Source of the DNA: Mycolicibacterium helvum
Lineage (GTDB): Bacteria; Actinomycetota; Actinomycetes; Mycobacteriales; Mycobacteriaceae
DNA: 64,000 bases
Direction of reading: 5' to 3'
Assembly: GCF_010731895.1 (NCBI RefSeq)
Contig: NZ_AP022596.1
Location: 5,332,001 to 5,396,000, forward strand
In this document: piece by piece, positions 33,501 to 49,804 of the stretch
How positions within the stretch are numbered: position 1 is the stretch's first letter
How the letters are laid out: every line of letters starts with the position of its first letter
Translations under genes and position numbers: made by a program
The notes under the pieces: generated by a model
What the model saw: only the letters and a program-made list of their open reading frames with translations
Database searches by the model: none
What the model was told of the DNA's origin: nothing

Positions 33501-33744
33501 TCAGAAAAACAGTTTTACTGGTACCGGCGCGTGCTTGAGAGGTGCGAGTTCGATCAGGGCTTGCGCTAGACCGCTCTCCCGACCCGGCATCAGATCGCCG
33601 CAGCTGACGCAGTCCACGTTTATGGTGACGCCACTGCAGCGCCGGCACGCGGGCCGGTTGTGGATGATGCCAGGAAGTACCCCTTGGTGCCCGCAAGCGC
33701 AGATGCCGGTGATGCGTTTGGCCGCCTGATAGCAAGTAACCACA
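33501..33744 (-). pseudogene. Fragment of a recombinase-associated protein with zinc ribbon
   Basis: About 80 residues in frame with the broken integrase, but unlike its C-terminus. CACGHQG, then CRRCSGVTINVDCVSCGDL gives paired Cys-x2-Cys knuckles. This resembles the N-terminal zinc-ribbon region of a large protein encoded with integrases in actinobacterial mobile elements. The rest of that protein is missing. The fusion to the integrase frame at about 33745 probably marks a deletion joint. Confidence 0.5.
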
Positions 33745-34652
33745 GACCGATTCGTTGGGCTAGTTGGCGACCAGCTGGTAGTGGCGTCCGCATCGGTCGC
33801 AGGGGACCGGCCACCGCTGTGGGTCTTCAGGCTTCCGGCAGGGGAGCGGTCCGCGGTCGCGAATAGCTCCCGGCCCTCGGAGCACCAGTACTGCAAAAGG
33901 TCTACCACCCAAGGAAATTCGGGCGACGTCAGAACCGTCCGTCGGCGTGGCCCCGATCCCTTGGTGTCCTTGGCCCAGCGAACGGTCATCGCACCGAAGT
34001 TGCCATAGCGGGGAACGTGCGGGTTTGGTGCAAAGTCGGTCAGGTCGAGCATGACCAGTTCTCGTCGACGCAGTCCAAACGCGTAGCCGATCTTGAATGC
34101 CGTCGAGTCACGCAGCGCCGTTAGCCAACGTTCGGACACCTTACTGTGGGCGTCATCCACGACGTCGAACAGGTGCTGCAGTTCAGCCTTTGCAAATGCG
34201 CGGCGTCCCGGTGGAACCGCGTCGTCCGCGGTGTGCTGCGGCGTGTTCCATTCAAAGACGAACTACGACGGCACGTCACGGAATTGCTTCTCGCAGAAAT
34301 CAACCCATCCATATCGACTGTCACTGACATAACTACAGAACATCGATATCGCGTTACTATACGAGCGCACCGTCGACAGAGCGATCGGTGTCGCCTGCGA
34401 CCGTAGTTCAGCGAGGAATTGATCCACGTCGTTCGCTCGCCAGCGCCATGGGTACTCGTTGGTGAATTCGACGAATCGGGCGATCACACGGCACCGTGCT
34501 TTGATCGTGTCGATCTCGAGGCCACGAGCCAGCATCTGAGCTCGCCAGCCATCAAGCATTGCGTCGAAGACGGTCTCGTCTGCTCGCAGCAGCGAAACAT
34601 CGTCGGCACGCAGAATCCGAGGGACGAAGCCCGGAAGCTCCTCAGCGGCCAT
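33745..34652 (-). pseudogene. Tyrosine recombinase remnant with in-frame amber codon
   Basis: Reading leftwards from ATG 34652 (GGTGGAG upstream), the SAM-like core-binding domain is intact (LDGWRAQMLARGLEIDTIKA through STVRSYSNAISMFCSY). A TAG at 34263-34265 interrupts it, but the frame then continues without shift (FVFEWNTPQHTADDAVPPGR). The first catalytic-domain box follows, GLRRREL with the box I arginine. The HxxR and Tyr boxes are missing; sequence switches to a zinc-ribbon protein near 33745. It cannot be an active recombinase as it stands. Confidence 0.75.
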
Positions 34653-34979
34653 CGCCGACTCCACCTGACAGTCGGCTCGACGACGTGATGCCGCCTGGGA
34701 CGTTGACCGGGAAGTCGAACGGAGAATGCGCAATGTCTCAGCGGGACATAGTAATTCGTCACTGTGACGTTTTGGCGGGTTGTCGGCGGATGAGAGGCAG
34801 CCCGGTGCGGACTTTCCAGGCGGGCTTGAGTGAACTGGCATCGGGATCTCGTCACCTAACAATGAAATCGTTCATTAAGTAGTGATTGAAATCTACGTAG
34901 AGCTGGAGCAAACGGGGTGCCGTTGTATGGAACGGGAGGGGTCAAGCGTGTCAGCTGCACCGACGTTGTCATCACGCAG

Positions 34980-35022
34980 AGGTGCGAGTCCTTGCACCTA
35001 ATGCAACCCGCATTGGGTTTTT
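34980..35022 (+). terminator. Two overlapping hairpins ending in a T-run
   Basis: AGGTGC/GCACCT forms one stem (34980-34999). CCTAATGC/GCATTGGG forms a second (34997-35017) and is followed by TTTTTG. The stems share CCT, so the two structures compete. The second is a good intrinsic terminator on the plus strand. No plus-strand gene precedes it, so it may end an unrecognised small RNA or be left from a lost gene. Confidence 0.5.
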
Positions 35023-35044
35023 GCCGATAAGCCACATTATGTCA

Positions 35045-35079
35045 AGTTAAGTACTGCATATTCCATCAGATGAATCACG
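35045..35079. repeat. Att-like block, copy near the integrase
   Basis: AGTTAAG, TACTGCATATT and GATGAATCACG follow one another here. TACTGCATATT recurs at 49934, AGTTAAG with ACTGCATAT at 54265, and GATGAATCACG at 46130. The block lies about 390 bp from the start of the broken integrase. It may be an old recombination core or the boundary of an inserted element. Confidence 0.4.
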
Positions 35080-35214
35080 CAGCATTTGTGTGACTCTCAC
35101 CTGCCGTGCCGGTGCGGATCATCGAAAAGACCTGGACACCAGGAATTCACGGTTGCGGCGGAAGACCCCGAAGAATCCCGTAAGCCCGACGAAGATGCCA
35201 GTTAGCCCACCCAA

Positions 35215-35933
35215 TATTTGGCTGGCTATACCGGGGCAAACGTGGTGCGGCGCGGTCGCGACCCCACCAGCGAAGCGTTGTGGACGCTGGCAGATGTGCA
35301 AAATCTGCTCGATATCTGGATCGCCACGGTCTGGCAGAACCGCCCGCACAAGGGGCTACGGCATCCGGCGATGCCCCGCAGGGATCTCACCCCCAACGAG
35401 GCCTTCGCCGCGCTGTCCGCGGTCGCTCCACAAGCCAATCTCGCCCTGACCGCCGAGGACTACATCGAACTTTTGCCGGTCGCCTACCGGTCGATCCAGC
35501 CCTATGGCATCAATTTCGCTGACCTGCACTACGACGCACCCGAACTCTACGAGTACCGCAACACCGCCAGTGGGCTGCCCGGGCCGGCTGCCGGCCGCTG
35601 GGAAATCCGTTACGACCCCCACCGCATCAACACGATCTTCGTTCGCGACCATCGTCGTGGCCGATGGATCCACGCTGATTGGACACTGGCCAAACACGCT
35701 CTAGCACCGTTCTCACTCGAGATCCTGCACGCCGCGAAACAGGCTGTCGCCCAACGCGGCGCACCTAACACGGCCGCAGAATACCTGGCTGAAATCACCC
35801 GAATCCAAACCGGACTACGCCGAACCGCACGCGAACAACGCCTCCACAACCGCACCACTCAAACACCCTCGGCCCTCCCCACGGCGGGCGCGCCGACCGT
35901 TGCCCCGCGGTGGCCGCGTCGACGAGGACTGAC
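35215..35933 (+). pseudogene. Mu/TnsB-type DDE transposase, C-terminal remnant
   Basis: About 240 residues read like the end of actinobacterial Mu-type (TnsB-like) transposases: GYTGANVVRRGRDPTSEALW, IWIATVWQNRPHKGLRHP, AEDYIELLPVAYRSIQPYGIN, then RWEIRYDPHRINTIFVRDHRRGRW of the beta-barrel domain. The catalytic DDE core is absent; sequence breaks at about 35215 with stops just before. A frameshift near the end is likely, because another frame reads VDED-stop three bases before the next gene's ATG. Confidence 0.72.
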
Positions 35934-35935
35934 CG

Positions 35936-36091
35936 ATGGCCGTGCCCGACACCTTGGCTGCCTGGCGGACTTTCGTGGCCCACCACCCCGTTCAGCCATC
36001 CACCCTCACCCCACGCCCTGTTGCTACCCAACATTTTCCGCCGATACCACTCGAGCGTTGTGAGGATCCCGTGAAAGTACGGCAGGCGTAG
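35936..36091 (+). pseudogene. TnsC-like ATPase, N-terminal stub
   Basis: A 51-residue frame from ATG 35936 (MAVPDTLAAWRTFVAHHPVQ) follows the transposase remnant as the AAA+ partner gene does in intact elements. It runs about 43 residues before the sequence changes and hits TAG at 36089. No Walker motif remains. The call rests on gene order and a plausible N-terminus. Confidence 0.4.
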
Positions 36092-39596: not shown

Positions 39597-40553
39597 GTGA
39601 GGAGCGGCGTCATCTCGGCATTTGACGAACTGCAATACGCCGGGCATCTCGGTCAAGAATGCCTTGCTCTCGTCCAAAAGCTTCTGCGGGAGGAACTGCG
39701 AAAATTCCTCGCACTGGCGAACTTGGAGTTCGAGGATGTCGTGCAAGACTTCCTCGTTGACCGCATCAAGCCACTCACGGCATCGTTGCTCAGCCAGGCG
39801 ACAGGTGACGACTCTCTTGCGAAACTGTTGCGAATGTCGATCAGGAATTGGCTGATTGACCGCGCACGGGAGACAGGTGTGGGGCATATTCGTCGCACCG
39901 TCGAGAAAGTGCTCAGCGCGGCAACAGATTTCGAACGTGTACCAGATGACGAGGTCGGTGCTGGACGATGGCGAATGGCGGGCACCGAGGCTCAACCATG
40001 GGTGGGCCGCGTCGGTGACCTTACCGCTGCGGCCTGGAGCGTGCGCGACGTTCGAATACCGAAGTGGTCCAGCACTACGCGACGTGCACCTCTCGCCGAC
40101 CGCGAATCGCTAGTTGCGATCATTCGTTCGGTATTGACGAGTGCTGAGGGCAGCGTGGAGATCGCGCACTTAGTAGCTGTATTCGCCAATCGGTTCGCGG
40201 CCGCGCTGGACCCACGTTTCGCTTCGATCGATGACGACGATAATCCGATTGACGTTGAGAGCGTGACGCCCGACCCCGAAGAGAGCCTCCTCGCCGAGGA
40301 GCTCGCGTTGGACGTCGCCACCGCCGCAGCCGAAATCGCCAGCCGGCTTACGGACACCGAACGCGAGATCGTACCGATTCTCCACGACAGCAGGGCGATT
40401 CGGCTGAAACTCGGCAAGGGCCGTACACAGTGCGCTGCCTTCGGAGCCAGACTGAAGGCTAAGATTCGCGAACTTGCGGGTACCACTGACGATGCCGAGG
40501 AGATTGTCCGGGAGGTGGTGGCGCTATGCGGAGGCGTATCCAATGCCGGATGA
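39597..40553 (+). CDS. RNA polymerase sigma factor-like protein
   Basis: A 318-residue protein from GTG 39597. The N-terminal part reads like sigma region 2: FEDVVQDFLVDRIKPL (45-60) and KLLRMSIRNWLIDRARE (76-92), as in sigma-70 proteins where this helix melts the -10 box. A middle segment (about 105-235) is unusual and acidic. Region 4-like sequence follows at 250-295 (LTDTEREIVPILHD...RLKLGKGRTQCAAFGARLKAKI). It overlaps the next gene by 11 bases and is first of a co-directional run ending in CBASS. It could direct RNA polymerase to that operon. Similarity is weak, so an atypical HTH regulator is the alternative. Confidence 0.55.
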   Translation: MRSGVISAFDELQYAGHLGQECLALVQKLLREELRKFLALANLEFEDVVQDFLVDRIKPLTASLLSQATGDDSLAKLLRMSIRNWLIDRARETGVGHIRRTVEKVLSAATDFERVPDDEVGAGRWRMAGTEAQPWVGRVGDLTAAAWSVRDVRIPKWSSTTRRAPLADRESLVAIIRSVLTSAEGSVEIAHLVAVFANRFAAALDPRFASIDDDDNPIDVESVTPDPEESLLAEELALDVATAAAEIASRLTDTEREIVPILHDSRAIRLKLGKGRTQCAAFGARLKAKIRELAGTTDDAEEIVREVVALCGGVSNAG

Positions 40554-41580
40554 TCCGAGAGATGAGTCGTCAGACTCCACCACAGGGGAACACTCAGGCC
40601 CTTCGCGTGCGGAATGGAGGAGACAGTTGAGCAAGCGTGCGCGCGATTACCTCGAACTGGCGCGACGCGCGGCAGCCCCACAACTGTCTCCTACGAGACG
40701 CCGCGCCCGATTCGGTGACACCCGCGATCATCCGATAGAGGCGGGGCAGATCTGGCGAGCGTCGTGGGATGAAGTCAGCATGCTGGTGGTGGTTCGCGAC
40801 ATTGACCACACAGAACTGAAGGTCATCCCGCTGACCATAGACCCGCCGGCCGAGGATTCGGATTGTGTTGTGCTAGAGGCGAAATTGACGGCCTTCGATA
40901 CCGAAGTCTCACTCTGGGCGGGGCTAGCCTCCACTCTGCCGTTGCGAGTGCTCGACGAAATCATCGATCAGCTGCCAAATGAGACCTCCGAATGGTTGTT
41001 CACTGCCGATCTGGCGAAGCCACCTCGCGGTGTGCGCCGTGGCCGGGCTCCTACAAACCCGTTCGAGCCTTCGATTGAAATCAGGGCCATGATTGATGAC
41101 GACCTCACCACACTGCGATCGAGCCCGGCACTGCCCGTTGCGACCGATGAAGACAGCCGACCCGTCCCGTCATTGGCTTCATTGCTCGGCAAAAACGTCG
41201 ATCTGGCGGCACTCGTCGCTGCGCTCTCGCCGCTCGGCTTAGACCAGCCGGCGGTCATGAGTCTTCTTCGCGGCAAGCGACCGGTTTCCCCGGAGATCGC
41301 TGATGCTGTCGCGACTGTCACCTGCATCGAGCCGGCGCAAGTCGCTGCAGCCGTCCAGCCGCTGCCTGCCCGGTTTGTCGAAGAAGTCGACCATCCGCGC
41401 TGGCGCCAAGTCTGGCGCGAACGCGCCGAACGCACTGGCAGCCGCGAAGAGGAAGCGCGCTTGGCAGCCAGCTACGAGATGTTCGCTCGCGCTGCACGCC
41501 AGACCGGCGCCCCGGAACCCGACTGGCATGCACGCTTGGCGCAGTTCCGAGTGGTCGAAGGACCTTTAGGGGCTTCGTGA
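40543..41580 (+). CDS. HTH-containing protein partnered with ImmA/IrrE peptidase
   Basis: A 345-residue protein, ATG 40543 with GGAGG eight bases upstream. Around 65-100 (IEAGQIWRASWDEVSMLVVVRDI) it resembles a small SH3-like/PemK barrel. Around 215-272 (LAALVAALSPLGLDQPAVMSLLRGKRPVSPEIADAVATV) it has the rhythm of an XRE-type HTH. The C-terminal 60 residues are charged helices. ImmA/IrrE peptidases usually cleave an XRE repressor encoded beside them, and this gene overlaps the peptidase gene by four bases. A role as the cleaved repressor is inferred. Confidence 0.5.
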   Translation: MPDDPRDESSDSTTGEHSGPSRAEWRRQLSKRARDYLELARRAAAPQLSPTRRRARFGDTRDHPIEAGQIWRASWDEVSMLVVVRDIDHTELKVIPLTIDPPAEDSDCVVLEAKLTAFDTEVSLWAGLASTLPLRVLDEIIDQLPNETSEWLFTADLAKPPRGVRRGRAPTNPFEPSIEIRAMIDDDLTTLRSSPALPVATDEDSRPVPSLASLLGKNVDLAALVAALSPLGLDQPAVMSLLRGKRPVSPEIADAVATVTCIEPAQVAAAVQPLPARFVEEVDHPRWRQVWRERAERTGSREEEARLAASYEMFARAARQTGAPEPDWHARLAQFRVVEGPLGAS

Positions 41581-42614
41581 TGCTCGGCAGGTACATCGAA
41601 GAAGCGCAGGCACAGGCGAAGTGCATAGAAGCTGCCGCCGAGAGCCTCCATCCCGGTGCAATCGCGAGGTTGCGTGTAGACCCGCTTGGCGAATTGAGGA
41701 ATTGGGAGGATCTCGCGGTCATCGAGATCGACGAGTCTTTGGACAGCTCGGCGTGTTCGGTCGCCGGCAGCTACCAGCCAAACCCACCGACACTCGTCGT
41801 GACCAAATCCCTGTCTCCCGCCCGTCGTGGGTTTACCGCGCTCCATGAACTCGGTCATCACCTGCAGCAAACCGATATCGGCCTGGGTAACGCGGTTTTC
41901 GGATACAGCGATCCGGATCAGTTCGAGGAGGAGGCCTGCGACGCCTTCGCGGCTGGAGTCCTGCTGCCCGATGAGGAGCTACGGGCCCGAATAGGTCCGC
42001 GTGGTCCGACCGCACAGGATGTGGTCGACGTGTACCACGTCCACTCATCTGCCTCGAGAGAGGCGTGCTGCGTGTGGGCCGCCCGGCACCTGCAGGGCGC
42101 GGGGGTCGTGGTGTTACTCGACAGCGCAGGCGTGGTTCGTTTCGCAGCACCGAAGAGTTTCATACCGCCGGCGAAGGACTCCGACCAGTCACGCACTCCG
42201 CTGATCGAAGCAGCACTGCGAAACCGCGATAGCGGAGCCAGCCGTGACGAGACATTCGTGATCTACCGGAACGGAACGACCAGCGACACCATGTATGGGC
42301 AGGCACGCTGGTTCGACGCCAACTACCTCGTCGCCGTCCTCGCCCGCGACAACGTCGCATGGAAGTCTCTCGCCCTGCCGCGTCCTCACAGCGGCAACCC
42401 TGGCAGTCCTCGATGGTGGACGTGCGAAACCTGCGACGATTCGTTCTCCGTCGCTGAACGCTGCAGCAGGTGTGGCGAACCGCAGTGCACCAACGGCCAT
42501 TGCGGATGCCACGCCAAACGCGCCGCGAAAGACAAAACTTGCCCCCGCTGTTCCTTTGTCCTTCATCCGTCGCGATTCGACGAAGGCAGCGAAGTGTGTC
42601 GAGACTGCGTCTGA
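41577..42614 (+). CDS. ImmA/IrrE family metallopeptidase with C-terminal zinc ribbons
   Basis: A 345-residue protein. The zinc peptidase motif is HELGHH (His90, Glu91, His94), with the third ligand probably Glu119 in EEEACDAFAAGVLLP, the standard ImmA signature. The C-terminal 65 residues are cysteine-rich: CETC, CSRC, CTNGHCGC, CPRC and CRDC, i.e. two or more zinc knuckles that could sense nucleic acid or stress. The family cleaves repressors, and CapP of CBASS belongs to it. It overlaps the HTH gene and lies 95 bp before the CBASS unit. Confidence 0.83.
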   Translation: MMLGRYIEEAQAQAKCIEAAAESLHPGAIARLRVDPLGELRNWEDLAVIEIDESLDSSACSVAGSYQPNPPTLVVTKSLSPARRGFTALHELGHHLQQTDIGLGNAVFGYSDPDQFEEEACDAFAAGVLLPDEELRARIGPRGPTAQDVVDVYHVHSSASREACCVWAARHLQGAGVVVLLDSAGVVRFAAPKSFIPPAKDSDQSRTPLIEAALRNRDSGASRDETFVIYRNGTTSDTMYGQARWFDANYLVAVLARDNVAWKSLALPRPHSGNPGSPRWWTCETCDDSFSVAERCSRCGEPQCTNGHCGCHAKRAAKDKTCPRCSFVLHPSRFDEGSEVCRDCV

Positions 42615-42709
42615 TCAGGCCAAAGACGACGAGCCGGACGATTCCGGCGGTGTGACGTCAGACCTCAGTGAGAGGGTCACAGGGCCCTCCGGTCTATCGA
42701 GGAGACGTC

Positions 42710-42907
42710 ATGCCCTATCGCAGCGCGATCAGCGGCCGCTACATCAGTAAGGCGGCCGCGGCCCGCCACCCGAACACCTCGGTGCGCGAATCACCCGGCT
42801 CGAACAGCGGATCTGGGACCCACTACCGCAGTGCGGGCACCGGTCAGTACGTTCCCGCGTCCGAAGCGGCCAAGCATCCGAAGACCACGCTCCGTGAGAA
42901 GGGCTGA
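42710..42907 (+). CDS. Small protein with two internal 25-residue repeats
   Basis: A 65-residue protein from ATG 42710 with GGAG upstream. It consists of two copies of YRSA(x)2G(x)Y(V/I)...AA(x)HP(x)T(x)2RE joined by a Ser/Gly linker. Small proteins of this type occur in actinobacterial phages and islands; their function is unknown. It is one base before the Cap5 start, so it is translated within the CBASS operon and may be a fourth component. Confidence 0.7.
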   Translation: MPYRSAISGRYISKAAAARHPNTSVRESPGSNSGSGTHYRSAGTGQYVPASEAAKHPKTTLREKG

Positions 42908-42908
42908 C

Positions 42909-44147
42909 GTGGGGTCCCAGGCAACCGCACGCGGCGTCGATAACGCACTCGCCTCGAACAAAGCTGTCGGCCCCGCCGGGCAGACCCGCACCGTTTCCGA
43001 ACGCATCGCCCGGCGAGTATGGGTCGCGGCGGGTGGTCGCTGCACGATCTGCAATCGTTATCTGCTCGACGACGAGACCACCGGGCAGGATGTGATGATC
43101 GGGCAGCTCGCCCACATCGTCGGCTGGTCCACGGCCGACGGGTCTCCTCGAGGCTCTGAGGACCTGGACACAGCGCTCCGTAACGAAGCCGACAATCTGA
43201 TGTTGCTGTGTTACGACCAGCACAAGGTCATCGACGAGAAGTCGCTGTGGACCGTGTACGACACGGACACCCTGCGCTCGATGAAGCGCATGCATGAGTC
43301 TCGGGTGCGTGACCTCACTGCGATGGGTCACGACAGGTCAACAACCGTACTCAGAGTGGTGGGAAGCATCCACGACCAGGCCGTCGATCTGACCGATGCC
43401 CGCATCCGAGAAGCTCTCTTCATCCGTAACCGATTCCCCGACTGGACCCTTCGAGGATCCGACGAGTACGAGGTTGACCTCCGCGCGCTGCCCGGTGAAC
43501 GCGCCGGCACCTCCGTCTACTGGGCTTCAGCACACGCTCACCTTGACGAGCGAATCGGCCATCTGCGCAGGATGGTCGCCAAGGGCAGCGTCACTCACCT
43601 CTCGGTCTTCCCCCTCGCCCGCATCCCGGTGTTGATCCTCCTGGGAACGCTTCTCGACGACACCGTCCCCGTCGACCTCTACCCGAAGCGGCGCGACGGC
43701 GACGAGGGCTGGGGATGGACCCCCACGGCGGACCGTGTCGGCTTCGGCTTCACCAGGGCCCGCCTCGGCAGCGACCCCACGATGGTGGCACTACTGGTGT
43801 CGGTTTCCGGCTCCGTCGATCAAGACCGGCTGCCAGACGAGATCGATGGCCGTTACACAATTTACGAACTCCGACCGACCGACACGCTCCCAGCCCCAGG
43901 GCTGATTGGCAGCGCAGACGCACTCGATGCATTCAGCCAGACCTGGCGTGAGGTCCTCGCAACCGTCGAAGCCCAGCACCACGGTGTGCAGGGCCTCCCC
44001 ACGTTCTCTGCCGTACCCGCTGCCGCGGCCGTCAGCATGGGACGACACCTCATGCGCGCCGCACACCCTCCCCTGCACATCTACGACCGCGTAACCAGCA
44101 GCGACACATACGAATTCACAACATCGACAGCCACAACAGCACCGTGA
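42909..44147 (+). CDS. cap5: HNH-SAVED effector nuclease of CBASS (Cap5)
   Basis: A 412-residue protein from GTG 42909. The HNH domain shows CTIC (Cys45, Cys48), His69 (QLAHIVG), Asn96 (ADNLMLLC) and Cys101/His105. The C-terminal SAVED domain (about 185-400) contains VYWASAHAHLDERIGHLR, LSVFPLARIPVLILLGTLLDD and the DRVGFGF core. In CBASS, SAVED binds the cyclic oligonucleotide made by the CD-NTase, and the HNH then degrades DNA, killing or arresting the infected cell. It is 10 bp before the CD-NTase gene. A longer start at 42831 overlaps the small protein and was rejected. Confidence 0.9.
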   Translation: MGSQATARGVDNALASNKAVGPAGQTRTVSERIARRVWVAAGGRCTICNRYLLDDETTGQDVMIGQLAHIVGWSTADGSPRGSEDLDTALRNEADNLMLLCYDQHKVIDEKSLWTVYDTDTLRSMKRMHESRVRDLTAMGHDRSTTVLRVVGSIHDQAVDLTDARIREALFIRNRFPDWTLRGSDEYEVDLRALPGERAGTSVYWASAHAHLDERIGHLRRMVAKGSVTHLSVFPLARIPVLILLGTLLDDTVPVDLYPKRRDGDEGWGWTPTADRVGFGFTRARLGSDPTMVALLVSVSGSVDQDRLPDEIDGRYTIYELRPTDTLPAPGLIGSADALDAFSQTWREVLATVEAQHHGVQGLPTFSAVPAAAAVSMGRHLMRAAHPPLHIYDRVTSSDTYEFTTSTATTAP

Positions 44148-44157
44148 AGAGGAGCTC

Positions 44158-45312
44158 ATGACCACCCCGACGATGAATCCACTGTCAGCCCTACTCACGG
44201 GAGCAGTAGACCTTCTCGACATCCCACCCCATCTCCGGGATCTCGTCGTTGCGCGCTACCAGGACGTCGGCCAATTCCTCGCCGACAACGGTGGCGATCG
44301 CTGCAGCATCTACCCGCAAGGGAGCTTCCTGCTCGGCACCGCCATCAACCCACCCCAGCAGACCGAATACGACATCGACCTCGTCTTCCGCGACGGGATC
44401 ACCAAGGACGAAACCTCCCAAGCCGAGCTGAAGGAGCGCGTCGGTGACATGCTCGAGGCCTACAACGACCACAAAGTCGGCGCGGAGGACGCACCCGATG
44501 ACTTCTCCGAAAAGCGTCGATGCTGGACGCTTTCCTACTCCAGTCAGGGATTTCATCTCGACGTGCTGCCGGCGGTCATCGACACCGAATTCAAGAAGTC
44601 ACCGAACGGGATCCTGCTCACCGACACCAAGTTGAGGCCATGGCAGTACGCGAATCCCAAGGACTACGCGATCTGGTTCCGCGATCAGTCCGAGGAGATG
44701 CGACGCAAGATCGCCGCCAGCGCCCGCGCTGAAAACGTTGCCGATGTCCCAAACTGGGCGGTGCGCTCAACACTGCAGCGACTCGTCCAGGTGTTGAAGT
44801 GGCACTGCTACCTCGATTTCGCCGACGACATCGACAACCGACCCCCGTCGATCTTGATCACGACTCTTGCAGCTCACGCCTACAGTGGCCAAGACGATCT
44901 CGGCGCGGCCATCCTTGAGGTGATCGACGGAATGCCGAACTACATTTTGAAGTCCGAAGGACGTTGGCTGGTGCGCAATCCGGCTCAGCCCAAAGAGAAT
45001 TTCGTCGACAAGTGGAACGAACCCGACACCGCTCATCGGCGAGAAGCGTTCAACGGCTGGCTTCGTAGGGTCCAACGAGACATCGAAATCGCCTCCGAAG
45101 CAAGAGATTCAGGTCTCGACATCCTCGTCGACCGCCTCAGCGATACGTTTGACCGAGGGGTGCTCGAGAAGTCCGCGGCCAACTGGGCGCGGACCACCGT
45201 GGACTTGAGAGGGCAGGCAAGGCTCGGAATCTCCTCAGGTACAGGTGCACTCGTGATCGGCTCGACGCGCCCAACTCCCCGGCACGGGTTCTACGGCCGT
45301 GGCCCGGCGTAA
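44158..45312 (+). CDS. CD-NTase, cyclic oligonucleotide synthase of CBASS
   Basis: A 384-residue nucleotidyltransferase. The active site is QGSFLLGT (Gly55-Ser56), YDIDLV (Asp72, Asp74) and HLDVLPAV (Asp135), i.e. GS-x(n)-DxD plus a third Asp. The downstream helical domain and VPNWAVRSTLQRLVQVLKWH match CD-NTases. On phage infection it should make a cyclic di- or trinucleotide that activates the HNH-SAVED protein. Clade and product cannot be told by eye. The stop overlaps the E2-like gene by 14 bases. Confidence 0.92.
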   Translation: MTTPTMNPLSALLTGAVDLLDIPPHLRDLVVARYQDVGQFLADNGGDRCSIYPQGSFLLGTAINPPQQTEYDIDLVFRDGITKDETSQAELKERVGDMLEAYNDHKVGAEDAPDDFSEKRRCWTLSYSSQGFHLDVLPAVIDTEFKKSPNGILLTDTKLRPWQYANPKDYAIWFRDQSEEMRRKIAASARAENVADVPNWAVRSTLQRLVQVLKWHCYLDFADDIDNRPPSILITTLAAHAYSGQDDLGAAILEVIDGMPNYILKSEGRWLVRNPAQPKENFVDKWNEPDTAHRREAFNGWLRRVQRDIEIASEARDSGLDILVDRLSDTFDRGVLEKSAANWARTTVDLRGQARLGISSGTGALVIGSTRPTPRHGFYGRGPA

Positions 45313-45712
45313 TGAGTACCTGAACGTCAGCCAACAGGCATTCGCCCTCCGCAATCTCCTTCCTGACGCGACGATCACGCTCAGGCGCGGCACACGCCTG
45401 ACCATGACCGCTGACCTTCAACCGACTCCGATGTCCCGCCACTACAGAGTCAAGATCGATTACCGGCTCGGTGCATTGCCCGAGGTAAGCGTGATCGCGC
45501 CGGAACTGCAACTCCATAGCGCGGCTGACGAACTGCCCCATACGTTTCCAGGCGAGAAGCTGTGCCTGCACCTCCCAGGTGAATGGTCACCCAGCATGTA
45601 CATCGCGCGCACTACCGTCCCGTGGACCAGCGAATGGCTGTTCTACTACGAACTCTGGCTCATCACTGGGACCTGGGAGGGCGGAGGCCACGGTGAGTCC
45701 AGTTCCGCATGA
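45299..45712 (+). CDS. E2-like ubiquitin-conjugation-type protein of CBASS
   Basis: A 137-residue protein. HTFPGEKLCLHLPGEW (Cys89 as candidate catalytic cysteine, His81 and His91 near) and YIARTTVPWTSEWLFYYELWLITGTW match the stand-alone E2 proteins of short type II CBASS. These conjugate or prime the CD-NTase through its C-terminus, without an E1 or JAB protease. The CD-NTase ends ...YGRGPA, a small-residue tail suited to conjugation. GTG 45299 lies within the CD-NTase end, so expression is coupled. No E1 or JAB gene is present. Confidence 0.85.
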   Translation: MARRNEYLNVSQQAFALRNLLPDATITLRRGTRLTMTADLQPTPMSRHYRVKIDYRLGALPEVSVIAPELQLHSAADELPHTFPGEKLCLHLPGEWSPSMYIARTTVPWTSEWLFYYELWLITGTWEGGGHGESSSA

Positions 45713-46139: not shown

Positions 46140-46293
46140 GAAACTCCAGCCCGTTGCGCCCGCAACCAGGTTGGCTCTATGCGCGGGGTCCGCGGCCGAA
46201 CGTGGCTGACGGACAATGCGATATCCAAACAAAGACCGGGTGCAACGACAACTCCGCAACCCGGGTTTGGCAGGATGGAGGACACTGACAGGT

Positions 46294-47688
46294 GTGCAGA
46301 ATTTTCCGCGCCTCGCAAAACTATTCGGGTGCCAACTGGACAAGCTCGATGAGCCGGCTATCCGCGCAGCCATTGCCGCGCGCATTCCCGAGGGCGACGA
46401 CCTCGATTTCAAGCAAGCCCATCACGATGAGCCGGACGAGCTCGCCAAGGACGTTGCGGCTTTTGCGAACAGCCGTGGCGGCCTGCTCGTACTCGGTGTC
46501 GCCGAAGACGATGGCTGCGCCAGCTTCGCGAAGCCGGTCGATATCAGTGATCAGATTCAACGCCACATTCAGCAGGTCATGGCCAGTCGGATCCACCCAT
46601 TCGTGCACGGTGTGGAGCTTCGGGCCATCCCTACTCCCCAGGCTGGTCACGGGTTCCTGCTGCTTATAGTTCCGGCGAGCTCGCAGGCCCCACACGCGGT
46701 CGTCGAGCCTGGTAGCGACGGAAGTTTGCGCTATCCGGTGCGGGCTGGCACGACAACGCGTTGGCTGTCTGAGCATGAGTTAAGCGTCCGTTACGCCGAC
46801 CGATTTCAGAGCAAGTCCGCCGCGAGCACTCGGCTCGACGAAATTCACACCGAAGGCCTGGCAAGGATCGCGGGATGGCGCTCTCCGTGGCTAGCGGTCA
46901 GCGTGGCTCCGTTGGTGCTCGGCTCCCGCGGCGTCGGAAGTGAACGACTCGCGGCCGAGATCGGCTTCACCCACTCCGTGTGGGCGCCGATAGCCACATC
47001 ACCGTTCCGCAACGGCCAGGCCGTTTCTGGCCGCCTCGTTGCGGGCCGAGCCCGCGCGATCTTGACCGAACACATCGGATACGCCGGCCGATCCGAACAT
47101 CCGCATGCCGAACTGTATTACAACGGTGCGGGATTCGCTGCTACGGACCGTGACCACAAACTCGCCAACGATGGTGCGCTCGTGGCTGCAGGCAAGGACC
47201 CTAGCGCCGATGCCATCCTGCAGGACGCCCTAGAAGTTCAGCTGCTGGCCCTGTTGTGGATGCTAGCCCAGCATGCCGCCGATACCGGCGCAGCTGGTGA
47301 GTTGCTGGTCCGTGCCCACCAACTCCCCCGGCAGCAGACCGGTTCCGGCCGCGTCGTCACGCCAGCGCAAATGTGGGAGCCGACTAGCTTTGCCGCCGAT
47401 GACAACTGGAATGTTTACACGATTGCAGATGGCTCGTTCCTGATGCCACACCAAACTCAGCCGGTTGACACCACTGTTTTCTTGGACGAACTGGTAGGCA
47501 ACGAACGTCGAACTGTGCAGGTGGCCTACGACATCGCCGCTGATCTGCTCGGTGACTTCGGCGTACCCGAGCCGATGATTCTTCGACCAGATGGCGAACT
47601 CAACGTGCGGCGGTTGCACACTTCCCGTAAGGACGCTATTACGGCTTGGGCTGAACCACTCGGCCTGGCGGCGCCACCCACTGTGTAG
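46294..47688 (+). CDS. AlbA_2 (Schlafen-type) domain protein
   Basis: A 464-residue protein if started at GTG 46294 (GGAGG about 13 bases upstream); ATG 46216 is an alternative. An AlbA_2 domain is clear at about 20-160: GDDLDFKQAHHDEPDELAKDVAAFANSRGGLLVLGV, followed by HGFLLLIVPASSQAPHAV and RYPVRAGTTTRWLSEHEL. The rest (about 180-460) is unknown. AlbA_2/Schlafen proteins bind nucleic acids and several act in phage defence or as regulators. It stands just outside copy C, beside CBASS, which supports a defence role. Confidence 0.78.
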   Translation: MQNFPRLAKLFGCQLDKLDEPAIRAAIAARIPEGDDLDFKQAHHDEPDELAKDVAAFANSRGGLLVLGVAEDDGCASFAKPVDISDQIQRHIQQVMASRIHPFVHGVELRAIPTPQAGHGFLLLIVPASSQAPHAVVEPGSDGSLRYPVRAGTTTRWLSEHELSVRYADRFQSKSAASTRLDEIHTEGLARIAGWRSPWLAVSVAPLVLGSRGVGSERLAAEIGFTHSVWAPIATSPFRNGQAVSGRLVAGRARAILTEHIGYAGRSEHPHAELYYNGAGFAATDRDHKLANDGALVAAGKDPSADAILQDALEVQLLALLWMLAQHAADTGAAGELLVRAHQLPRQQTGSGRVVTPAQMWEPTSFAADDNWNVYTIADGSFLMPHQTQPVDTTVFLDELVGNERRTVQVAYDIAADLLGDFGVPEPMILRPDGELNVRRLHTSRKDAITAWAEPLGLAAPPTV

Positions 47689-48649: not shown

Positions 48650-49804
48650 ATGCGAGCCGACCGGCTAGTAGCCATCCTCCTCCTTCTACAACAGCGCGAG
48701 CAGGTCACAGCATCGGAGGTCGCTCTGGAGCTGGAGGTGTCCGAGCGCACCGCCCGCCGCGACCTCGAAGCGTTGAGCGGCGCCGGGGTTCCCGTGTACT
48801 CCATGCAGGGACGAGGGGGCGGGTGGCGCCTCCTGGGCGGCGGTCGCACCGACCTGTCCGGCCTGACGGCGAGCGAGTCTCGCGCTCTGTTTCTGGTTGC
48901 CGGACCCGCCTCGACGGTAACCCCGGCCGTGAAGGCTGCTCTGCGCAAACTCGTACGCGCGCTGCCCGAGCCCTTCCGGGAGCAGGCAGAGGCGGCCGCG
49001 ACATCAGTTGTCGTAGACCCGCGACGCTGGGGATCCAGCCAGTCCGAGCCCCGACCACCCCGGTTTCTCGACGAACTTCAAGAGGCGGTGATCCGCGGTA
49101 TCCAGGTACGGCTCGGCTACGTCGACCGTAAGGGCTCGGAGACCGAGCGGACCGTGCACCCACTGGGCATCGTCGCCAAGGGCTCGACGTGGTACCTGGT
49201 CTCCAATACGGAGGCCGGTCGACGGACCTTCCGGATCGACCGTGTCTCGTCGGTCGAGTTGACCGACGATGCCGTCGAACGGCCCGAGGGATTCGACCTT
49301 GCCGAGAGCTGGCGCGAGATCGCCGACGAGGTCGATCGAAAGCGCACTCCCCTCGAGGCCCAGGCCATGTGCGCTCCCGACGGGCTCGGTCTGCTCCGGA
49401 TGGTGCTCGGGGGCCGCCTCGAAGTTGGCGGTTCCACGCCCGACGGCCGGATCGAGATCGTGATCCGCGGCCACAACGAGTACGCCCTCGCAGGCGAACT
49501 TGCCTGGCTCACTGAATGGCTCGAAGTCACCGGCCCGCAGGGCGTGCGCGACCACCTAGCTTCGATCGGCGGTGCGCTTGTAGCGCGGTACAGCAGAGCC
49601 GGGCGCCACTCGCTCAGCGACCTCGCAAACACTGAGGCCACGCACGCTCCCGACACACCGCTGCCCGCGCGGACTCGCCTGACAAGTCGCACGGTCTCGC
49701 GCCTCGGCCCCATGGGTATCCCCGATGGCCGCTGGCCGACGGAACGGGACGCGCCCACTCCCCGTCCGGGCGAACCAGTTTCGGACCAACCATCAAACCG
49801 CTGA
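48650..49804 (+). CDS. WYL-domain transcriptional regulator (YafY/PafC type)
   Basis: A 384-residue regulator. The N-terminal winged HTH is RLVAILLLLQQREQVTASEVALELEVSERTARRDLEAL (about 5-42) followed by GGGWRLLGG. The WYL region (about 140-205) includes GSTWYLVSNTEAGRRTFRIDRV. WYL domains bind nucleic acid or ligands and control stress genes. A low-complexity tail (about 330-384) is unusual. It probably regulates the divergent DinB-like gene; such pairs are common in actinobacteria. Confidence 0.87.
   Translation: MRADRLVAILLLLQQREQVTASEVALELEVSERTARRDLEALSGAGVPVYSMQGRGGGWRLLGGGRTDLSGLTASESRALFLVAGPASTVTPAVKAALRKLVRALPEPFREQAEAAATSVVVDPRRWGSSQSEPRPPRFLDELQEAVIRGIQVRLGYVDRKGSETERTVHPLGIVAKGSTWYLVSNTEAGRRTFRIDRVSSVELTDDAVERPEGFDLAESWREIADEVDRKRTPLEAQAMCAPDGLGLLRMVLGGRLEVGGSTPDGRIEIVIRGHNEYALAGELAWLTEWLEVTGPQGVRDHLASIGGALVARYSRAGRHSLSDLANTEATHAPDTPLPARTRLTSRTVSRLGPMGIPDGRWPTERDAPTPRPGEPVSDQPSNR

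Follow-up and report, generated by a model that had tools for sequence, protein, structure and literature searches.

What are three overlapping genes that lie directly in front of an immune operon of Mycolicibacterium helvum doing there? These genes are located on the forward strand of a 64,000-nucleotide stretch of contig NZ_AP022596.1 (positions 5,332,001 to 5,396,000; hereafter the window, to whose numbering all coordinates refer) and encode a sigma-factor-like protein, a protein with a helix-turn-helix (HTH) motif and a metallopeptidase. The operon behind them specifies a cyclic-oligonucleotide-based antiphage signalling system (CBASS). A first, sequence-only reading of this DNA had placed the trio directly before CBASS, at coordinates and on a strand that we could confirm, and had suggested either a new induction circuit or a defence system of its own. 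Here we argue for an account, to which we assign a probability of about 0.7, in which the trio is a sigma/anti-sigma/protease cassette that switches on the downstream immune operon via a dedicated promoter.

The first gene (39597..40553, + strand) encodes a protein of 318 amino acids whose predicted fold is sigma-like and comprises a region 2, a linker domain and a region 4, in agreement with the region 2/4 resemblance seen initially. Its sole sequence match was to the extracytoplasmic function (ECF) sigma model TIGR02937 (sigma70-ECF; E 0.0016, 18.1 bits), below the cut-off of 42.9 bits; no Pfam sigma family was detected among 29 sigma-like homologues, and a sequence search of solved structures with this family gave nothing useful. 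The second gene (40543..41580, + strand; start codon either ATG at 40543 or TTG at 40627) encodes the anti-sigma candidate, for which a MazF/CcdB-type SH3 barrel and an XRE-type HTH are predicted. The HTH is present in the family of this middle protein, whose chains of 317-346 amino acids carry the MazF-like barrel. Pfam and PADLOC scans of the window's middle protein found no match, nor did they give a name to the sigma-like protein, and a profile search of solved structures with the HTH family turned up nothing useful, its single match being to the CI repressor of a phage (E 0.44). Both the sigma-like and the HTH fold, on whose prediction the sequence-only reading had made its proposal depend, are predicted, as is the SH3-like barrel that it had described.

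The third gene (41577..42614, + strand) encodes a clear ImmA/IrrE-type (M78) metallopeptidase with a zinc-ribbon-like C-terminal region, so that the initial description of a HELGHH peptidase with extra zinc ribbons holds. This protein matches the PADLOC capP model, the solved IrrE chains (in the peptidase core alone) and the CapP chain 7t5t_A. The HExxH motif is intact in 28/28 aligned homologues, a feature of the ImmA-type zinc peptidase of CapH+CapP, and the Cys/His-rich tail is likewise invariant in 28/28; this tail is a candidate sensor. Five M78 matches are present in the host genome, and the short loci around the other four contain no match to any of the three family profiles; the HTH-protein profile has a single match in this genome.

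Protein-database searches at E <= 0.001 yielded 55 homologues of the HTH protein, 80 of the sigma-like protein and 494 of the peptidase (120 of the 494 listed), and among the matches listed the source names were those of actinobacteria. We fetched the best 80 of 239 loci with the peptidase alignment and scanned them with the profiles of the sigma-like, HTH and peptidase families. In 64 of these 80 loci, nearly all from Actinomycetota, the trio is complete and its genes stand in that order, while the remaining 16 include distant peptidases and contig-edge cuts. The trio is a real, conserved unit. It is also rare and patchy, as expected for mobile defence genes: the HTH profile found matches in 15 of 297 genomes of the genus (seven at E below 1e-50), in 11 of 397 genomes of the order sample and in 8 of 394 genomes of the class sample, the own genome being counted in each case. 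A broader sigma alignment searched against the 394 class genomes matched ten, four of them strongly.

Genes at the loci were called with a simple codon-usage script, neighbouring open reading frames (ORFs) were clustered, representatives were named by Pfam and PADLOC, and family profiles were then run across all loci. Next to the trio, a CBASS, a ubiquitin-like protein (Ubl)/E1 or an MBL plus E2-E1-JAB payload was found at 49 of the 64 loci. CBASS accounts for 28 (23 with CD-NTase, E2 and a transmembrane (TM) effector, two with CD-NTase, HNH-SAVED and E2, two with HNH-SAVED, and one with CD-NTase, E2-E1 and JAB), Ubl plus E1 ("Bub"-type) payloads for 16, of which 13 contain DUF6527, and MBL plus E2-E1-JAB payloads for five. 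DUF3892 alone follows four trios, and 11 trios are without any named payload class (L060 and L073 have just 2 and 115 bases downstream). No Pfam family exceeded its cut-off for the payload candidates of L039, L045, L049, L055 and L065. Loci recovered by genome searches, some of which resemble the 80 fetched ones, carry Bub payloads (L114-L116) or CBASS payloads (L120, L122, L134 and L135), and two (L117 and L119) have no recognised payload; at L116, the peptidase is split over two ORFs and the sigma-like gene was not found. The idea of a new induction circuit gains support from these 49 of 64 trios that precede CBASS or ubiquitin-like operons, with a promoter-like site (see below) in between. 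The same association disfavours a defence system of its own, and the wide distribution in non-defence settings that had been named as speaking against a role in defence was not observed.

Could the MazF fold of the middle protein instead mean that the trio is a toxin-antitoxin or abortive-infection unit, with a MazF-like toxin, that simply lies beside other defence genes? The 15 of 64 loci without a recognised CBASS or ubiquitin-like payload would fit this view; however, we regard it as highly improbable, given that the trio stands directly ahead of several kinds of immune operon at the other 49, that the barrel is without the MazF loop (judged by eye, against a MazF sequence), and that the promoter-like site sits between the trio and its payload. 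The toxin-antitoxin reading was set aside because of this steady link to the downstream operons.

Several further observations were made on the genes that follow the cassette. A DUF3892 gene (~94 amino acids) is found after it in 18 of the 64 trios (L029-L054, a Streptomyces clade, and L074), ahead of several payload kinds, as though it were a member of the cassette. At L039, L050 and L119 the peptidase match stops early and is succeeded by another protein, which in L039 bears a weak resemblance to APH (E 0.038). A Ubl/E1/DUF6527 operon at L133 (3120-6938) is accompanied by a divergent single chain resembling, by eye, an HTH joined to an ImmA-type peptidase, which would be the same payload with another controller. 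The trios of L017, L049 and L055 are followed by the promoter-like motif and by unrecognised payloads, which are possible new immune genes; transposase-like genes (by eye) come next in L017.

Alignment of the gaps between peptidase gene and payload revealed a shared block that was absent from the earlier account of the locus. In the window it reads GGACGATTCCGGCGGTGTGACGTCAGACCTCAGTGAG and has the form GGAC-N16-CGTCAGA-N5-GTGAG (42636..42672, + strand), starting at base 22 after the peptidase stop codon; it is the proposed target of the sigma-like protein. Typical ECF promoter boxes resemble GGA..-N16-CGTC. A 12-position pattern, CGTC[AT]G[AT]-N5-GTGAG, reached a score of at least 11 in 27 of 68 gaps versus 0.12% of shuffles. 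Among non-redundant gaps the count was 23 of 49; of 9826 windows drawn at random from these loci 0.2% scored as high, and none of the 48 stretches preceding the trio did. In 16 of 50 gaps GGAC stood at the correct distance ahead of CGTC, an arrangement also seen in 2% of the control windows and, upstream of the trio, in L070 alone.

Because the 12-position pattern came from the same data, unsupervised motif discovery was performed on one payload class and its result tested on the others. Trained on 21 CBASS-TM gaps, the motif reappeared (p<0.01) in 17 of the 28 gaps that belong to other classes. Two of four HNH-SAVED gaps (those of the window and L006) beat all 800 controls, 11 of 14 Ubl/E1/MBL-class gaps (a class that here includes the CBASS locus L014) reached p<0.001, and the ten 'other' gaps contributed four at p<0.01, three of these at p<0.001; the motif was not recovered in L008, L070, L019, L063, L068 and six 'other' loci. 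Training on the 14 Ubl/E1/MBL-class gaps identified 17 of 21 CBASS-TM gaps at p<0.01 (11 at p<0.001), and the window again ranked above all controls. With a matrix built from 13 other loci, the window site scored 45.3 bits and the next best window position 11.3. In the host genome of 6.4 Mb, the full pattern is matched perfectly at a single place and the runner-up has two mismatches; across the 297 genus genomes there are two perfect matches, the second being in G208, a genome without an HTH-protein match. Taken from these sequence patterns, GGAC-N16-CGTC would be a dedicated ECF-type promoter and the putative target of the sigma-like protein. Motif discovery upstream of the trio, conducted as a search for a shared operator through which the HTH protein might repress its own transcription, found that the Streptomyces clade shares a motif, GGTGTATGCAGGC..GAAGCC, upstream of many trios; in the window's clade, no motif clearly exceeded the shuffles (63.8 and 89.4 in log-likelihood vs at most 51.7 and 78.3).

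Three counts weigh against our account. Six other genomes of the genus that have a strong HTH-protein match carry no perfect site, allowing up to three mismatches brings no surplus of matches (1 against an expected 3.09), and the bare pair of boxes should occur by chance 0.66 times per 64-kb window; without the downstream GTGAG, two ECF-like boxes are too short to be telling within one window. This last figure also lends something to the view that sees in the conserved site an ordinary promoter, read by another sigma factor or by a global damage regulator, and has the trio control something else, since more than one sigma factor might in principle read ECF-like boxes. We nevertheless judge this view to be very unlikely, as the long pattern has just the two perfect matches in the 297 genus genomes and as the type of box follows the phylogeny of the trio. 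A tree of the concatenated regulators (70 rows, built by a quick method, some of its branches being long) shows one change of box type (GGAC or CTAC, for the rows that could be assigned), while the payload type changes 11 times without and 17 times with the class 'other', although payloads are still clustered (shuffled mean 38.6 changes). CTAC rows have CBASS, Bub, MBL and DUF3892 payloads, and GGAC rows have HNH-SAVED CBASS, TM CBASS, Bub, E2-E1-JAB CBASS and unrecognised ones. Hence, the cis element tracks the regulator and not the payload. We consider it rather probable that sigma factor, MazF-like/HTH anti-sigma factor, ImmA peptidase and matching promoter form a portable immune sigma cassette that moves as one unit in Actinomycetota and has been placed before immune operons of four or more kinds (Bub, MBL-E2-E1-JAB and two types of CBASS).

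The role of the middle protein is illuminated by some of its relatives. An Hx3Cx2C motif is present in the first 120 residues of 3 of 64 middle proteins (L063, L064 and L068, with three different payloads) versus 1 of 741 other called genes. The Pfam family zf-HC2 ('putative zinc-finger'), which serves as an anti-sigma finger, scores above cut-off in the middle proteins of the full trios L064 and L068 and below it in L063 (18.8 vs 22.2 bits). Among more distant loci, L125 (4812-10758) represents a fused form of the cassette: its sigma-like gene is followed by one chain joining an Hx3Cx2C-like segment, an SH3 region and a Peptidase_M78 domain (E 1.6e-7), combining parts that are separate in the window, and a HerA-type ATPase is encoded further downstream. 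At L131 (5019-9183), a sigma-like gene precedes an Hx3Cx2C-SH3 protein, with no match to an HTH or peptidase family, and then a RecF/SMC-type ATPase. The fingers of L125 and L131 are motifs recognised by eye that Pfam did not name, and the L131 finger segment gave nothing useful when compared with solved structures. The zf-HC2/Hx3Cx2C finger is absent from the window's middle protein; because it is absent there and present in three of 64 trios, we do not file this protein as a member of the zinc-binding anti-sigma (ZAS) family and regard it as likely to be anti-sigma in action. Judged by these motifs, the HTH protein probably acts as an anti-sigma factor and not as a simple repressor of the CapH type.

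A repressor is what a CapH/CapP-like derepression scheme would require: the HTH protein would be an ordinary repressor, the conserved site its operator, and DNA damage would lead the peptidase to destroy the repressor, with the sigma-like protein as an accessory activator. The XRE HTH of the middle protein family and the resemblance of the peptidase to PADLOC capP and to chain 7t5t_A speak for such a scheme, as does the placement of CapH+CapP before CBASS and Bub operons described in PMC13373217. We think it unlikely nonetheless, for the site has by eye a two-box GGAC-N16-CGTC layout and not that of a palindrome, the finger of three middle proteins suggests an anti-sigma function, and the scheme gives no main role to the sigma-like gene, which no full trio lacks. 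The comparison with CapH/CapP drawn by the sequence-only reading stands for the peptidase and is less certain for the HTH protein.

According to the sigma/anti-sigma/protease account, the middle protein, with its N-terminal segment, MazF-like SH3 barrel and XRE HTH, would inhibit the sigma-like protein and keep it inactive at rest. Infection or DNA damage would activate the ImmA/IrrE peptidase, which in turn would cleave the middle protein; DNA damage is the likely signal by analogy with PprI and CapP. The released sigma-like protein would bind RNA polymerase and bring it to the GGAC-N16-CGTC promoter just behind the peptidase gene, so that the neighbouring immune operon is transcribed, in the window a small ORF and the genes for an HNH-SAVED nuclease, a CD-NTase and an E2-like protein.

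The simplest account of the trio, a sigma/anti-sigma/protease switch on a dedicated promoter, has a precedent in Calp. In type III CRISPR systems, the protease CalpL cleaves the anti-sigma factor CalpT and thereby frees the sigma factor CalpS (PMC12751052). The likeness is one of design, the three-part logic of protease, anti-sigma and sigma factor. The protease of the trio is ImmA/IrrE-type (M78) and not a SAVED-Lon protein such as CalpL (the SAVED protein here is an HNH nuclease), the trio is without CRISPR, its middle protein adds an HTH, and it would act on a neighbouring immune operon that has a conserved promoter-like site of its own. CalpT is reportedly a MazF homologue, which parallels the MazF-like fold predicted for the middle protein.

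With CapH+CapP the cassette shares an HTH protein and an ImmA-type peptidase, but the trio adds a sigma-like gene, a MazF-like barrel, in some HTH proteins a zinc finger, a zinc-ribbon-like tail of the peptidase and a two-box promoter-like site. CapK+CapS precede CBASS, Bub and MBL operons alike, and these controllers, like CapW and CapH+CapP, are repressors released by DNA damage (both as given in PMC13373217). The trio stands before the same kinds of payload as CapK+CapS; CapK+CapS and CapW, controllers before immune operons as well, are in contrast kinase/STAS or WYL proteins without a sigma factor. The same paper counts CapW or CapH+CapP beside 219 of 544 Bub operons, and earlier counts of CapH+CapP at such operons may include HTH-peptidase pairs of the trio cassette. 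PprI, an M78 peptidase, is activated by single-stranded DNA and cleaves the repressor DdrO (PMC10904395); PprI/IrrE-DdrO shares the peptidase type with the trio but is without a sigma factor, and IrrE chains match the core of the trio peptidase alone. ECF sigma factors with ZAS partners resemble the trio in the predicted sigma fold, in zf-HC2 in some middle proteins and in the GGA..-N16-CGTC-type site, whereas the sigma-like sequence falls below the family cut-offs, a soluble metallopeptidase is part of the operon and the target is an immune operon. The portions of PMC8195603 and PMC7159879 considered here concern other conflict systems, with metallopeptidases or an ECF sigma factor, and not the trio. 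Among the matches listed from the open-licence literature (titles and beginnings of abstracts), no account of the trio or of a CBASS/Bub sigma factor was found, which is not proof of its being unpublished. The cassette serves like the Cap controllers and works, in the account proposed here, like Calp; membership in either group is not established by the features compared.

The payload that adjoins the trio in the window is a CBASS operon with both a CD-NTase and a Cap effector. It encodes, all on the + strand, the HNH-SAVED effector (42831..44147; PDLC00749, E 1.5e-152; the ORF opens at 42831, with homology from near 42957), the CD-NTase or cyclase (44158..45312; PDLC00780, E 1.2e-111) and the E2-like protein (45299..45712; PDLC00863, E 2.4e-48). 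A 65-codon ORF (42710..42907, + strand) with a Shine-Dalgarno-like GAGGAG and an internal repeat is conserved in L006 and L007, had no Pfam family above cut-off, and is possibly the first gene of the payload transcript. Directly after the CBASS genes lies a gene for an SLFN/AlbA_2 protein (46216-47688; Pfam 9.1e-13; PADLOC PDC-S50 1.2e-5), which may be a further defence gene, and at 48650-49804 one for a 384-amino-acid protein that resembles, by eye, an HTH plus WYL regulator. Upstream of the trio (33501-36063), integrase-like and transposase-like pieces, judged by eye, suggest a mobile island.

Toxic immune operons are silenced and then activated; in contrast to the Cap controllers, the cassette would do this by recruiting polymerase through its own sigma factor. 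If our account is true, the trio adds a class to the 'controllers of associated pathways', is the first among those compared here to act via a dedicated sigma factor, and would link the designs of Calp and CapH/CapP. Its precise promoter motif may mark further immune operons, and would then help to discover new systems in Actinomycetota.

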